Origin: Microcaldota archaeon
Lineage (GTDB): Archaea; Micrarchaeota; Micrarchaeia; Norongarragalinales; UBA8480
Direction: 5' to 3'
Assembly: GCA_023247085.1 (NCBI GenBank)
Contig: JAHFHC010000018.1
Span: 1-18,031 of the forward strand
Length of the DNA: 18,031 nt
Positions within the stretch are counted from its first letter, which is position 1. Each line of letters starts with the position of its first letter. Under the pieces are notes generated by a model that saw nothing but the letters and a program-made list of their open reading frames with translations, was not told where the DNA came from and ran no database searches. Both the position numbers and the translations under genes were made by a program. Below, in pieces: positions 6,647 to 16,838 of the stretch.

Positions 6647-6733
6647 TTAGCTACAGCCTGTTGTTTCGCCACAGTCCATGCACACGCTGCATGACCCGTT
6701 TTGTTTGACTTTCATGCTGCCGCATTTACCGCA
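6647..6733 (-). other. C-terminal cysteine ribbon of the RNR
   Basis: CGKC at residues 1130-1133 and CMDC at 1147-1150 form a probable zinc ribbon, with further cysteines at 1144 and 1156. In class II enzymes of this type the C-terminal cysteines are thought to pass electrons from a thioredoxin-like donor to the active site, which fits the neighbouring redoxin gene. Confidence 0.7.
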
Positions 6734-9700
6734 TTGTTCTCCAGTGAACCCTAGTCTTTTTACATCTGGTTTTTCAGCTTTTTGAACAACTGCGTTGGCG
6801 ATGTTGATTATCCCTTTTTCGGTTGGTACAACAGGGTTAGCGGTTTGTCCACTTGAAATTAATAGCGTGGTTTGCTTTGTTGCACTGCGTTTTTGTACGT
6901 ACTCGCGTTCCAAAACGCGGAACACGTAGTCGACCATGCTAGTTGCATTGTTTATTTCTTCGTCGCCTGCAACTACCCCGCTTGGTTCAAAGCGCGTAAA
7001 TGCAAATGTATCCACATATTCTTGCAACGGTACACCGTATTGTAATCCTTTACTAACTGCAATTGCAAAGCAGTTGAGAATAGACCTGTAACCTGCCCCT
7101 TCTTTGTACATGTCTATGAAAATTTCACCTAAGCCGCCGTCGGGGTATTCTCCTGTCCGCAAGTGTATTTTATGCCCGCCGATTCGTGCCTCTTGTACGA
7201 ATCCGGTGCGTTTTGTTGGCAAGCGTTTCTTTTGACCTCGCAAGAGAATCTCTTCATGTAATTGCTTTGCGTCAACTTTTTCATTTATGTCATTTTCATC
7301 TTTTCCAATAAGTTTTGTTAATTCATCTTCTTCGCTGGCGGTACTGTTCAATGGCTGTGATAATTTGCTCCCGTCGCGGTAAAGCGCAATAGCTTTTAAC
7401 ATATAATTCCAGCTTTTATTGTAAGCACTTTTCACATCTTGAATCGTTGCCTCGTTTGGCATGTTAATTGTCTTGCTAATTGCCCCGCTTATAAACGGCT
7501 GGACAACTGACATCATTTTGAGATGTGCATCGTATTGGATGAATCGCTTGCCGTACTTTCCACACTTGTTAGCGCAGTCGAATATCTCATAATGTTCTTG
7601 TTTTAAGTGAGGCGCGCCTTCGATTGTCATTGTACCGCATACGTAGTTATTAGCATCTTGGATTTCCTTGTCGGTATAATTCAATGCTTTTAGCATGTTG
7701 AAGTCACTGTTGGCAAGTTGTTGTTTTGTGAACCCAATTTTTTGGCAAAACTCTTCGCCTAAAGTAAATTTGTTGAATACAAAAGTCAAGTCAAATGCAG
7801 TTGCAATTTGTTTTTCTATTTCTGCGATTTTGTCGTCAGTGAATCCTTTTTGCTTGAGGGATTCAACATTAATGTGTGGGCAACCGTTTAGCGTTGATTT
7901 TCCTTTGCAATAGTCTTCAATATCGCGTATTTGTACTTCAGTGTAGCCGAGGCGCTTAAGTGATTTTTTCACGCTTTGATTAACGATCTTTAAGTAACCG
8001 CCCCCTGCTAACTTCTTGTACTTTACAATTGCAAAGTCAGGTTCAACTCCAGTTGTGTCACAATCCATCTGTAAACCTATAGTTCCAGTTGGTGCAATTA
8101 CTGTAACTTGTCCATTGCGATAGCCGTATTGTTCGCCGAGTTCAAGTGCATTGTCCCAACATTCGCGCGCTGCTTTTAACATGTACGCGGGGCATTGCGT
8201 TGCGTTTATTCCAACTGGTCTAATTGTTAATTTTTCATATTCTTCTGCAGGCGCATTGTAAGCTGCTCGCCTGTGGTTTCGAATAACTTTTAGCATGTGT
8301 TCTTTGTTGCGCTGATAAGCCGGAAACGAGCCAAGACACTGTGCCATTTCTGCGCTAGTTGCATATGCTTGTCCGCATAGCATTGCGGAAATTGAACCTG
8401 CAATTGCCCTTCCTTTGTCGCTGTCGTAAGGGATGCCCAGTACCATTAGTAGTGTTCCTAAATTAGCAAACCCTAAGCCCAAGTTTCTATAATTGTGCGT
8501 TCCCATTGCGATTTCTTTACTTGGAAAGTGCGCCATTAACACGCTGATTTCAAGCACTATTGTCCATAGTCGAGTAGCATGGATAAATTCATTTACTTTG
8601 AATTCGCCTGTATCTTCGTTTAAAAATTTCATTAAATTTATACTAGCTAAATTGCAAGAAGTGTCATCTAAGTGCACGTATTCGCTGCATGGGTTAGTTG
8701 CATTTATTTTTCCATCAACTGGACAAGTGTGCCATTCTTGAATAGTGTCATCATATTGTAACCCTGGATCCGCGCATGCCCAAGCCGCGTAAGCGATTTT
8801 ATCGTATAATTCACTTGCTTTTACCCTGCGCATTGTTTGTCCATTTGTGCGACTAGTTAAATTCCAATAACCGTCACTTGCAACTGTATTGAGAAACTCG
8901 TTTGTAACCCGCACGCTATTGTTACTGTTTTGCCCGCTTACAGTCTCGTATGCTTTACCTTCATAATGCATGTCGAACACATCTGCTGCTTCGAATCTCT
9001 CCACGCCTTGTTCAACTAATTGCAATGCCCGAGTTACAACTGAAAAAGGCACTTGCTCGGTTAATGCATCTACAATAACTGCTTTCAATTTTTCACTGTT
9101 CTTCCAATTAGTTGTATTCTCTTGTTTTGCAGTGCGCATGATTGCTGCTACATGCCCGCTTATAATCCGGCTACCGGTGTACATGTCTGCCACTTTGGCT
9201 TCTTCTTGCGTTTTCCACATCACAAATTCTTCAATTTCCGGGTGGTCAACATTAAGAATAACCATTTTTGCCGCTCGCCGTGTTGTTCCACCGCTTTTAA
9301 CAGCTCCAGCTGCCCTGTCAAAAATTTTTAAGAAACTCATTAAACCAGAACTAGTTCCGCCACCGCTGAGTTTCTCGCCGCGTCCGCGAATGTTAGAGAA
9401 ATTCGAGCCAGTTCCGCTTCCATATTTAAACACTCGCGCTTCACGCAGCACAAGGTCAAATATCCCGCCATCGTTTAACAAGTCATCTTTAACGCTTTGA
9501 ATAAAGCACGCTTGCGCTTGTGGTCTACTGTACGCATCTTCACTTGCTTTTAACTCCCCGGTTTTTACATCAACGTAATAGTGGCCTTGCCCGTTTCCGC
9601 GAATGCCATAAGCATATGCTAATCCGGTGTTGAACCATTGTGGGCTGTTCGGTGAAGCCATTTGGTGAACTAACATGAATTGTAATTCGTCTTCAAAAGC

Positions 9701-10120
9701 TTGAGCGTCATCTGCACTTGCAAAATAATTATACTTCTCTCCCCAGCTGCGCCAACAACCAGCTAATCGCCTAACTACTTGCTTTACGCTCCTTTCCCCG
9801 CCTAAAATTTGTTTGCCGTTCTCATCGAGCAACGGTGTTCCATCTACATTAAACTGTGGAACGCCCGTTTTGCGAAAATACTTCTGTGCTACAATGTCCG
9901 TTGCAACTTGAGTCCAATTCTTCGGGATCTCTAAATTTTTCAATTCAAAAACAACGCTGCCATCTTTATTGCGAATAATACTGGTGCGGTACTCGTACTC
10001 TGTTGAATTAAGTGGGTCTTCACCTGCTTTTGTAAATAGCCTATTTATTTTCATTCCGCCAACTGGAACTTGAAGTACAATTGTTTTTTCCTTGTCAAAA
10101 TTCGCGTTATCAGCTACCAT
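6647..10120 (-). CDS. nrdJ: Adenosylcobalamin-dependent (class II) ribonucleotide reductase
   Basis: Reduces ribonucleotides to deoxyribonucleotides using a B12-derived thiyl radical. It has 1157 residues, close to the bacterial-type NrdJ length of about 1200. Active-site residues are visible: redox cysteines C205 (QAQACFIQ) and C489 (DDTSCNLAS), and N476, C478 and E480 in NPCSE. PTGTIG lies at 677-682. Residues 721-825 form an insertion of short helical repeats. A TSCPD-type domain starts near 965 (KRLPTKRTGF, GGHKIHL). The C-terminus is a cysteine-rich ribbon with C1130, C1133, C1147 and C1150. No N-terminal ATP-cone is seen; the catalytic part begins by about residue 17. The ATG at 10120 is the first usual start. 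The frame is open back to a TGA at 10214-10216 but holds no ATG, GTG or TTG. The redoxin gene lies 111 nt upstream on the same strand. Confidence 0.95.
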   Translation of the reverse strand: MVADNANFDKEKTIVLQVPVGGMKINRLFTKAGEDPLNSTEYEYRTSIIRNKDGSVVFELKNLEIPKNWTQVATDIVAQKYFRKTGVPQFNVDGTPLLDENGKQILGGERSVKQVVRRLAGCWRSWGEKYNYFASADDAQAFEDELQFMLVHQMASPNSPQWFNTGLAYAYGIRGNGQGHYYVDVKTGELKASEDAYSRPQAQACFIQSVKDDLLNDGGIFDLVLREARVFKYGSGTGSNFSNIRGRGEKLSGGGTSSGLMSFLKIFDRAAGAVKSGGTTRRAAKMVILNVDHPEIEEFVMWKTQEEAKVADMYTGSRIISGHVAAIMRTAKQENTTNWKNSEKLKAVIVDALTEQVPFSVVTRALQLVEQGVERFEAADVFDMHYEGKAYETVSGQNSNNSVRVTNEFLNTVASDGYWNLTSRTNGQTMRRVKASELYDKIAYAAWACADPGLQYDDTIQEWHTCPVDGKINATNPCSEYVHLDDTSCNLASINLMKFLNEDTGEFKVNEFIHATRLWTIVLEISVLMAHFPSKEIAMGTHNYRNLGLGFANLGTLLMVLGIPYDSDKGRAIAGSISAMLCGQAYATSAEMAQCLGSFPAYQRNKEHMLKVIRNHRRAAYNAPAEEYEKLTIRPVGINATQCPAYMLKAARECWDNALELGEQYGYRNGQVTVIAPTGTIGLQMDCDTTGVEPDFAIVKYKKLAGGGYLKIVNQSVKKSLKRLGYTEVQIRDIEDYCKGKSTLNGCPHINVESLKQKGFTDDKIAEIEKQIATAFDLTFVFNKFTLGEEFCQKIGFTKQQLANSDFNMLKALNYTDKEIQDANNYVCGTMTIEGAPHLKQEHYEIFDCANKCGKYGKRFIQYDAHLKMMSVVQPFISGAISKTINMPNEATIQDVKSAYNKSWNYMLKAIALYRDGSKLSQPLNSTASEEDELTKLIGKDENDINEKVDAKQLHEEILLRGQKKRLPTKRTGFVQEARIGGHKIHLRTGEYPDGGLGEIFIDMYKEGAGYRSILNCFAIAVSKGLQYGVPLQEYVDTFAFTRFEPSGVVAGDEEINNATSMVDYVFRVLEREYVQKRSATKQTTLLISSGQTANPVVPTEKGIINIANAVVQKAEKPDVKRLGFTGEQCGKCGSMKVKQNGSCSVCMDCGETTGCS
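7646..7960 (-). other. Helical-repeat insertion inside the RNR
   Basis: RNR residues 721-825 hold four related units: LGYTEVQIRDIEDYC, KGFTDDKIAEIEKQ, IGFTKQQLANSDF and LNYTDKEIQDANNYV. Each is a Gly/Asn-Tyr/Phe-Thr turn followed by a helix. The insertion is known in long bacterial-type NrdJ proteins; its role is not clear from sequence. It reads straight through with flanking sequence intact, so it is not an intein. Confidence 0.6.
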
Positions 10121-10231: not shown

Positions 10232-10489
10232 TTAATAGTCAAAAATAATGCTCTTGATTTCCCCAATACTATTAGCGCGTCCGATCTCTTGCTTCTTTTC
10301 GTCAAAAAACACAACAGTAGGTGCTTTTGACACATTAAATACAATTGCTTGCTCGTAACCATCATTTTTAGTAACGTCAAAAACTGTACCTGCAACTTCA
10401 CCGCGTTGCTCTAACTCATTCAAAAATGACTTAACCGGCGGACACGATGGACACGTAGGTGTTGTAAACAAAAAGTAATTTTTCACCAT
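10232..10489 (-). CDS. Glutaredoxin/NrdH-like redoxin, probable RNR electron donor
   Basis: An 85-residue thioredoxin-fold protein. Strand 1 is KNYFLFTT, followed by the redox motif CPSC at residues 13-16 and a helix (PPVKSFLNELEQ). The cis-proline is P57 in KAPTVVFF, and the last strand/helix is EIGRANSIGEIKSIIF. The size and the CxxC suit a small dithiol donor like NrdH or a glutaredoxin. Its place just upstream of the RNR on the same strand suggests it re-reduces that enzyme; this is inference. The frame could extend to a GTG at 10564, adding 25 residues, but the fold begins at MVKNYFLF and GGGAGG lies 12 nt before 10489, so I choose 10489. The upstream region carries the paired palindromes at 10530-10576. 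Confidence 0.85.
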   Translation of the reverse strand: MVKNYFLFTTPTCPSCPPVKSFLNELEQRGEVAGTVFDVTKNDGYEQAIVFNVSKAPTVVFFDEKKQEIGRANSIGEIKSIIFDY

Positions 10490-10529
10490 AATTCCCACAA
10501 ACCTCCCAATATCCCGCCAGCTCCAACGT

Positions 10530-10545
10530 ACACCATATATGGTGG
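10530..10545. promoter_or_regulatory. NrdR-box-like palindrome 1, overlapping the likely TATA box
   Basis: ACACCATATATGGTGG matches the bacterial NrdR-box consensus acaCwAtATaTwGtgt at 13 of 16 positions by direct comparison. The core CCATATATGG is a perfect palindrome and is also the best TATA element for the redoxin gene. It predicts a start near 10512 and a leader of about 23 nt holding GGGAGG. A repressor bound here would block TBP. Confidence 0.6.
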
Positions 10546-10560
10546 ACTGACCTGCGCTTA

Positions 10561-10576
10561 ACACAACCTGTTGTGT
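10561..10576. promoter_or_regulatory. NrdR-box-like palindrome 2
   Basis: ACACAACCTGTTGTGT matches the NrdR-box consensus at 13 of 16 positions. It sits in a longer perfect inverted repeat, TAACACAAC/GTTGTGTTA with a 2-nt centre (10559-10578). It starts exactly 31 bp from palindrome 1, so the two boxes lie on the same helix face with a 15-bp gap, the arrangement known for NrdR operators of RNR genes. Confidence 0.6.
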
Positions 10577-10578
10577 TA

Positions 10579-10860
10579 TGTGTTGGACTATTATACAAGT
10601 GCTGGTGGTTTATAAACGTATTTTTTTGAGACGTAAGCGCGGCGTTTTTTACGCGTGCATTTGTATTTCTCCTCTTAAAATGCGTGCTCGCGAGATCCTT
10701 AGACAAGAAGCGTTCGCTTTTGTTCTAATTTATTGCGTAATTTTTTGTCGTTCAGCCAAAAAGTTGATTTAGTTTAACTTAAATTACTAAAACTCTATGT
10801 TGGTAGTTACACTTCGTATAATAAAGCAGAAAACCCCGAGGCTTTTTTTGAATTCAAAAC
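10579..10860. other. Non-coding spacer between the redoxin operator and the next gene
   Basis: I see no convincing gene here. An open stretch at 10578-10772 (+) has no start signal, no domain and odd composition. Visible items are a TATA-like GTTTATAAACG near 10608-10618, a TATA-like GTATAATAG on the minus strand near 10588-10596, small inverted repeats such as AAGCGTTCGCTT near 10710, and CCCCGAGGC followed by seven T near 10836-10850, which resembles an RNA 3' end on the plus strand. None is strong enough to call an RNA gene. Confidence 0.4.
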
Positions 10861-11381: not shown

Positions 11382-12317
11382 ATGAAACAAAAATTTGTAG
11401 AAAAAATTTTTGCGGAACATAGTTTAGGCAAAGTTGAGTCCGTTGTAAATATTGAAATTGGCTTCACAAACAAAGTCTATTTGGTGAATGACGCTTTTAT
11501 TTTCAAAGTTTGTGAAGATGAGAGCAACGAACAAAAGTTTGAAATTGAGGTTTTTTTCTACAATTTTTTCAAGGATAAAATTCCTGTTCCTAAAATCAGC
11601 GTTTTCGACAAATCCAAAAAGATTTATGGCAAATTTTTCATGATTTATCCCAAGATTGAGGGCGATAATCTGTATTCAAAATGGCATTTGCTGAACAATG
11701 ACCAGAGAAAAATCATCATCTCACAGCTTTGCGATATTTTGAAAGTAATCAACAAATCACCATACGATGAATTTCGGCAAAAGTTTGATATAAATTTTTC
11801 GGACAATTGGCACGACAAAATACTCAATCAAATCCAAAACTCATTAAAGAAAATCGAGGCAAGGAAACTTCTGTCCCCTGAGTTTATCAAAGTCATTAAA
11901 AAATTCGTGGACGACAATCATCACGTTCTCAAAGAACAAAAACTTGCATTACTTTATTGGGATGCTCACTTTGATAATATTCTCGTTCAAGATACAAAGA
12001 TTGTCGGAATTTTGGATTTTGAAAGGACAGACGTTTCTTCAATCGATTTCGTTTTGGATACTGTCAAAAGAATCGTTGAGTATCCGAAAAAGTACATGTC
12101 CGAAAAATTTGAAAAGTTTGCCAAAAAAGAAGACTACGCTCACCTTTTGGATTGGTTTCTAGAATTTTATCCAGAACTTTTTGAATTTGAAAATTTGGAT
12201 AAGAGGTTAGATCTATATGCGGTTGAACACGATTTAGATACTCTTATTTGGTATCCAGATTCTGTGGAAGTTAAACAGATAATAGCGAAAACCGTAAAAT
12301 ATGATGGTTCACTTTAG
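11382..12317 (+). CDS. Aminoglycoside phosphotransferase (APH)-fold kinase-like protein
   Basis: 311 residues with the layout of small-molecule kinases of the APH/choline kinase group. It has a nucleotide-binding turn (IGFTNKVYLV, 26-35), a candidate ATP lysine K42 (AFIFKV), the hinge FFMIYPKIEG at 85-94, the catalytic loop LLYWDAHFDNIL at 190-201 with D194 and N199, and the metal-binding ILDFE at 210-214 with D212. The usual catalytic-loop start is HGD; here it is YWD, so the first His is replaced while Asp and Asn remain. The substrate cannot be told: family members phosphorylate antibiotics, sugars, choline or amino acids, and resistance should not be assumed. The gene is visibly more AT-rich than its neighbours, which hints at recent transfer. 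It converges on the 632-residue surface protein gene with 7 nt between them. Confidence 0.8.
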   Translation: MKQKFVEKIFAEHSLGKVESVVNIEIGFTNKVYLVNDAFIFKVCEDESNEQKFEIEVFFYNFFKDKIPVPKISVFDKSKKIYGKFFMIYPKIEGDNLYSKWHLLNNDQRKIIISQLCDILKVINKSPYDEFRQKFDINFSDNWHDKILNQIQNSLKKIEARKLLSPEFIKVIKKFVDDNHHVLKEQKLALLYWDAHFDNILVQDTKIVGILDFERTDVSSIDFVLDTVKRIVEYPKKYMSEKFEKFAKKEDYAHLLDWFLEFYPELFEFENLDKRLDLYAVEHDLDTLIWYPDSVEVKQIIAKTVKYDGSL

Positions 12318-16040: not shown

Positions 16041-16838
16041 TTACCTTTTTTTATTTTTTATATTTTGTATAAAATCATTAATATTATACGCATTTGCGAA
16101 TATTAGGTCATATAACTGTTCTATTTCATCCAGCTTTGGTCCATCTATTTTTATGAAACCTACCAATCCTGCGTTTGTAGAAGATCCTAGCCCAATTAAC
16201 GCTGTATTTTTAGTTATGGCTAGAGCAAGCACCGCGGATAGCGGAGCATGTCTAATTTGTAAATTATTGTATTTTTCTAGTTCTTTTAATTTTTCTATTG
16301 CCGTTTTATCTTTTTGTTCTTTTATTAGTTTTGCAGCTATTTCTGTTGAAAACAAATAATAAATTTTTTTATTACTTTCTATTTGTTTTCTTAGTGTGTT
16401 ATAATATTGTTGGCGTAAAAACGATGAAATTCCTTCATTTCTTATGAATAATGCGGGGGTTTTTGCAGCTAATCGTATTTCTCCAGGACTTTGTAACATA
16501 ATAGTTAGAATTCTGTAGAATTCATCAGAAAATTTATAGCCAGTAATATTTGCACTGATTTGAATTTGATTATATTTTGCATTATACCCGTATAATATTT
16601 CTAATGCAGTATTGGCGGTTGTTTTAAGCCATTCTTCACTAATTTTATATCCTTCTTGTGTTTTTTCTAATTTTTTATCTTTAAGTAATTCATTGAGTGC
16701 TTTGAAAACTGCCTTATACGTTATTTTTTGATTCTTTTTTTCCATGGCGTGCCAGACCCTTATTGCTGACATTGGCCAAGAAACGCTAAGTACTCTAATT
16801 ATATTTTCTTTTGTTGAATTTTCTAGTGGAAAAAGCAT
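16041..16838 (-). CDS. Predicted winged-helix transcriptional regulator with TrmB-like effector half
   Basis: 265 residues. The N-terminal part, about 8-70, predicts a winged helix: KENIIRVLSVSWPMSAIRVW, then YKAVFKALNELLKDKKLEKT and a short hairpin GYKISEEW. The C-terminal part (about 115-255) begins GEIRLAAKTPALF, contains YYLFSTEIAAKLIKEQ and IRHAPLSAVLALAI, and ends LIGLGSSTNAGLVGFIKIDG followed by LYDLIFANAY. This pattern resembles the PLD-like sensory half of TrmB-family archaeal regulators, without catalytic HKD motifs. Ligand and targets are unknown. It is the first gene of an operon with mvaD (5-nt gap), which suggests isoprenoid control or autoregulation, as inference. A TATA-like TAATTAATAA lies about 20-25 nt before the ATG. 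The gene is very AT-rich. Confidence 0.65.
   Translation of the reverse strand: MLFPLENSTKENIIRVLSVSWPMSAIRVWHAMEKKNQKITYKAVFKALNELLKDKKLEKTQEGYKISEEWLKTTANTALEILYGYNAKYNQIQISANITGYKFSDEFYRILTIMLQSPGEIRLAAKTPALFIRNEGISSFLRQQYYNTLRKQIESNKKIYYLFSTEIAAKLIKEQKDKTAIEKLKELEKYNNLQIRHAPLSAVLALAITKNTALIGLGSSTNAGLVGFIKIDGPKLDEIEQLYDLIFANAYNINDFIQNIKNKKR

Follow-up and report, generated by a model that had tools for sequence, protein, structure and literature searches.

A probable NrdR operator on the promoter of a redoxin and class II ribonucleotide reductase operon in a micrarchaeal genome

The window analyzed here, a stretch of DNA of 18,031 nucleotides, is contig C18 of a 0.89-Mb micrarchaeal genome (36 contigs, 92% complete). 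It carries a leftward-reading operon whose first gene (10232-10489, minus strand) encodes a redoxin of 85 amino acids from its ATG, with a glutaredoxin/thioredoxin fold (PF00462, E=3e-6; TIGR00411-like). The second gene, nrdJ (6647-10120, minus strand), encodes a class II adenosylcobalamin-dependent ribonucleotide reductase (RNR) of 1157 amino acids that matches PF02867, PF08471, TSCPD and, with 592 bits, NrdJ_Z TIGR02504, and that lacks an ATP-cone. This gene order agrees with the sequence-only reading, which had placed the site discussed below directly before a redoxin and a class II RNR. A Shine-Dalgarno-like GGGAGG (10502-10507, minus strand) upstream of the redoxin ATG is kept in the sister species. 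The redoxin is the probable reductant of the RNR, and the partnership is supported by the relative G033, in which a single ORF (L194:4433-7060, plus strand) combines NrdJ with an N-terminal redoxin domain and an ATP-cone-like segment. The host is archaeal, as had been supposed: its RNR shares 97% identity with the enzyme of 'Candidatus Micrarchaeota archaeon nzgw34', and fibrillarin and Nop5-type genes are present in the window.

Other features of the window and of related loci deserve mention. An APH-type phosphotransferase gene (11382-12317, plus strand) has the element TTTATAAC approximately 28 bp before its ATG, which suggests a leaderless transcript. The gene at 16041-16838 (minus strand), which adjoins a diphosphomevalonate decarboxylase-like gene, gives a weak FilR1_middle match and may encode an archaeal transcription regulator. 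The class II RNR genes of three relatives (L155 in G001, L166 in G012 and L180 in G022) contain large in-frame insertions, giving ORFs of 1515-1707 amino acids, that are probably inteins; in G001 the matches are split by approximately 1.1 kb.

A distance of 41 bp separates the redoxin ATG (10489, minus strand) from the putative operator upstream, which is formed by two 16-bp palindromes, box 1 (ACACCATATATGGTGG, 10530-10545, minus strand) and box 2 (ACACAACCTGTTGTGT, 10561-10576, minus strand), separated by a 15-bp spacer (10546-10560) that gives a period of 31 bp. Sequences and coordinates are exactly as first described, and rescoring against the consensus acaCwAtATaTwGtgt returned the same 13 of 16 matches for each box, with the critical C4 and G13 present in both. 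The 31-bp repeat had been recognized as NrdR operator geometry, and the spacer does fit the known systems, where 15-16 bp is common and the rule is an integral number of helix turns (PMC12051234). The summed score of the pair is 26 of 32; among 400 first-order Markov copies of the window, no simulated pair scored 24 or higher, and pairs scoring at least 21 arose at 0.15 per window. When the whole 0.89-Mb genome was scanned for the paired box, the strict pattern ACACN8GTG-N14-18-ACACN8GTG occurred once, at 10530-10576, and its reversed control not at all. With ACACN8GTGT-N15-ACACN8GTGT and up to three mismatches allowed, the operator has one mismatch and the sole other genomic site has three. 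Sites with three mismatches in the same genome (two at period 32, one at period 31) were dismissed as being at the control level.

A candidate third box, box 0 (ATACAAGTGCTGGTGG, 10593-10608, minus strand), stands in phase a further 32 bp upstream of box 2 and abuts the predicted TATA element. Its C4 and G13 are present, and its position parallels that of TATA-abutting boxes in the relatives G034, G033 and G015. Because it matches the consensus at only 9 of 16 positions we keep it as tentative; if counted, it would set the first box of the operon directly against the TATA element, as in G034 and G033.

An NrdR homologue was expected to accompany such a site, and the genome encodes a single one, of 145 amino acids, on contig C35 (19177-19614, minus strand). 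It scores 184 bits against the NCBIfam equivalog TIGR00244 (cut-off 125) and has a zinc ribbon (PF22811, 66 bits, above the cut-off) with the two CxxC motifs CPFC and CEKC, followed by an ATP-cone (PF03477, 79-80 bits) that is the sole ATP-cone detected in the genome; its length lies within the 140-220 residues set for the family. The DNA-contact residues R12, D15, R17, RRRR and R37 (Streptomyces coelicolor numbering) are all present when the proteins are aligned, and the CxxC ligands and the equivalents of D15, R17, RRRR and R37 are kept in 61-63 of 63 Micrarchaeota NrdRs. Among solved structures, its best matches are NrdR chains (E about 1e-39). Contamination as the source of the nrdR contig was rejected because the neighboring genes are archaeal (threonyl-tRNA synthetase editing domain, RFC and NurA) and an identical NrdR is encoded by the sister genome. 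By homology, the C35 protein would be a DNA-binding tetramer dependent on dATP plus ATP.

The paired palindromes are conserved in related genomes, so that neither observation set out beforehand as refuting the reading, a genome lacking NrdR or relatives lacking the palindromes, was made. A first set, comprising 592 kb around the RNR and nrdR genes of 58 genomes, yielded 29 box pairs, three-box sites being counted more than once, against a chance expectation of 2.7 over the entire 592 kb. All but two of them (27/29) lie no more than 400 bp upstream of an RNR, redoxin or nrdR gene (binomial p=3e-29, uncorrected for shared ancestry). A pair was found in 22 of 39 genomes with NrdR and in 1 of 19 without detected NrdR (Fisher p=1e-4, likewise uncorrected for shared ancestry); the single exception is G024, an 82% complete genome whose congeners carry NrdR. 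With the score fixed beforehand, a later set of 30 RNR loci from Micrarchaeota that have NrdR gave a pair at 19. Approximately 40% of the genomes with NrdR have no pair at the threshold used, in some cases because contigs end or boxes have diverged. The period among 38 pairs is 32 bp (n=28), 31 bp (n=5) or 33 bp (n=5), and conservation of A6 and T11, two positions left free in the search, is 95-100% in these pairs; together with C4 and G13 these bases agree with the NrdR logo. The segment ACACAACCTGTTGTG of box 2 is also found upstream of nrdJ in the relative G044. One pair in G035 (L198:3793-3840), containing ACACAACCTGTTGTGT, is located away from any RNR, between an unidentified ORF and genes whose ORFs, on visual inspection, resemble those of topoisomerase VI subunits.

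The nrdR gene of the archaeon has no box pair upstream, nor does any of 24 later nrdR loci in the broader sample. Autoregulation as a general trait was accordingly dropped, and the target in the broader-sample group is the RNR rather than nrdR itself.

The site at 10530-10576 unites a box match that includes C4 and G13, a spacer giving an integral number of helix turns, a position near the promoter and upstream of an RNR operon, and conservation alongside NrdR in relatives. We put the probability at roughly 0.87 that it is a true NrdR operator on the TATA promoter (10609-10616) of the redoxin-nrdJ operon, probably extended by box 0 to 10608, and that it works as in the model set out below.

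The part of the sequence-only reading that did not hold concerns the promoter. It had placed the probable TATA element within one of the boxes and deduced repression through blocking of TBP, and the TATATA of box 1, at 41-56 bp upstream of the start codon, would indeed give a short leader. A promoter model trained on 59 of the genome's own genes favors instead the predicted TATA element TTTATAAA (10609-10616, minus strand), 32 bp upstream of the pair, which scores 7.1, whereas box 1, the TATA-distal box, scores -0.3 or less; an A-rich site further upstream, at 10623-10634, scores 7.7. From general archaeal promoter geometry, transcription would start at 10584-10588 (minus strand), approximately 22-25 nt downstream of the TATA element. 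In the sister species, the 51-bp block 10577-10627, comprising TTTATAAA, its flanks and box 0, is without substitution, while box 1 has four differences and box 2 has one. One of the changes in box 1 interrupts the TATATA (TATATG on the plus strand); a symmetric change of C5/G12 to T5/A12 keeps the palindrome and brings it nearer to the consensus. The TATATA core is in any case the normal center of an NrdR box. By a simple consensus score, the sequence immediately upstream of the first box is enriched in TATA-like elements across relatives (p=2e-5 and 7e-7 in the first and later sets, respectively), so that the boxes straddle or follow the start site; the TATA-to-box distance across Micrarchaeota is mostly 0-30 bp with the boxes downstream, and the 32-bp gap of the operon is at the long end of this range. 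An NrdR operator that represses by covering a TATA element inside box 1 is consequently improbable.

Less probable still is that the palindromes serve some other dimeric regulator, for example the FilR1-like protein of the window, and that their likeness to NrdR boxes is coincidental. Archaeal operators are often palindromic and a candidate regulator is at hand, but pairs alike in sequence and period accompany NrdR, and RNR or nrdR genes, across the class, and the positions C4/G13/A6/T11 fit the NrdR logo. The remaining possibility, that the boxes are decaying relics inherited with a horizontally acquired bacterial RNR, draws on the closest named relatives of the RNR, which include many Ignavibacteria/Kapabacteria and CPR bacteria at approximately 60% identity, but is the least credible of all, as a sample of 10 non-CPR bacterial genomes (almost all with the label Bacteroidota/Chlorobiota/Kapabacteria) contained no NrdR, the archaeon retains an intact NrdR, a compensatory change is seen in box 1 and hardly any change in box 2, and the boxes are found before RNRs of very different kinds, among them other NrdJ types and NrdR-NrdD fusions.

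Published accounts call NrdR abundant among bacteria but rare among archaea (PMC9110341, PMC12176259), and the circuit had been viewed as a bacterial regulator, reported from few archaea, grafted onto an archaeal promoter. Of 146 genomes sampled from the phylum, however, 68 have an NrdR above the family cut-off, so here it is a widespread clade trait and both "grafted" and "few archaea" need rewording. In a tree of 77 rows the Micrarchaeota NrdRs need three changes, with weak deep support, and one transfer is therefore indistinguishable from several; haloarchaeal NrdR forms a separate clade with support of 100/100. Some relatives encode a protein of 830-876 amino acids in which the NrdR zinc ribbon and two ATP-cones are fused to an anaerobic RNR (NRDD): L158:3846-6476 (plus strand), L160:4731-7355 (minus strand) and L177:1778-4273 (minus strand), with partial versions in L162, L182 and L184. 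The G008 version (L162:3941-5377 onwards) is interrupted by a single in-frame stop and then continues in the same frame as NRDD. The fusion is the only NrdR found in these genomes, and NrdR-box pairs are present upstream in several; such an RNR may act as the repressor of its own gene.

The closest parallel among characterized systems is the nrdRJ operator of S. coelicolor (PDB 7p37, 7p3f, 7p3q; PMC9110341), which shares with the archaeon a class II RNR target, a 31-bp period and C4/G13, and whose NrdR has the same zinc ribbon and ATP-cone with D15/R17 and RRRR contacts. The bacterium differs in having a sigma promoter and nrdR within the RNR operon (PMC9110341), whereas the archaeal nrdR is on another contig and is without boxes of its own. 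The best sequence match among solved structures is Escherichia coli NrdR (9gex, 9fvr; PMC12176259). There, each RNR promoter has two boxes and nrdAB is reported to have a further one, a parallel to the weak third box of the archaeon, although the promoters are bacterial and the targets are class I and III RNRs (PMC12176259). The NrdRs of Listeria and Streptococcus likewise obey the helix-phase rule with 15-16 bp spacers, and S. pneumoniae nrdHEF has three boxes, but these act on sigma promoters outside an archaeal TATA context (PMC12051234). Archaeal NrdR has been reported before, including the haloarchaeal nrdR-nrdB-nrdA operons (Natronomonas plasmid PL131 etc.; PMC3019208), where NrdR adjoins the RNR; unlike the situation in this archaeon, the RNR is class I, nrdR is part of the operon and NrdR belongs to the separate clade. 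Conserved NrdR-box-type palindrome pairs occur approximately 76 bp upstream of nrdR in haloarchaeal plasmid nrdR-RNR operons (L261-L264), downstream of a TTTTAT-like element and with a period of approximately 29 rather than the usual 31-32. Our literature search found nothing on NrdR promoters in haloarchaea and no mention of NrdR with DPANN. We regard the circuit as a new archaeal case of a known system; neither its breadth in Micrarchaeota nor its TATA-proximal geometry appears to be described in the searchable literature.

We propose a model in which, as dATP rises, the C35 NrdR would take up dATP plus ATP in its ATP-cone and, by homology with bacterial NrdR (PMC9110341, PMC12051234), form a DNA-binding tetramer. 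Using paired zinc ribbons, the tetramer would clamp two boxes separated by three helical turns and bend the DNA. The boxes lie just downstream of the predicted TATA element, around and after the predicted start site, and the kinked and covered start-site and early transcribed DNA would block the loading, melting or escape of RNA polymerase. Given the position of the boxes, repression is most likely exerted on polymerase at the start site or leader and leaves the TBP site uncovered. The binding of NrdR to the boxes, its sensing of nucleotides, the repression itself, the position of the start site and a role for box 0 are inferences. Most likely this is an ordinary dATP/ATP-sensing NrdR circuit set on archaeal promoters and widespread in the phylum. 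We rate as slightly better than an even chance the bolder proposal of a clade-wide Micrarchaeota NrdR regulon with boxes downstream of TATA over the start site, in which polymerase would be blocked with TBP possibly still in place, together with NrdR-NrdD fusions in some lineages, where an RNR with an NrdR-box promoter would include a repressor domain of its own.

With about half of the sampled Micrarchaeota genomes carrying NrdR and with operators that can be located, there are now concrete promoters for asking how a bacterial-type repressor controls TBP/TFB-dependent transcription. As the NrdJ of the archaeon has no ATP-cone, NrdR may be the main dATP feedback on deoxynucleotide synthesis in this cell, and the data suggest that such feedback operates mainly at transcription.
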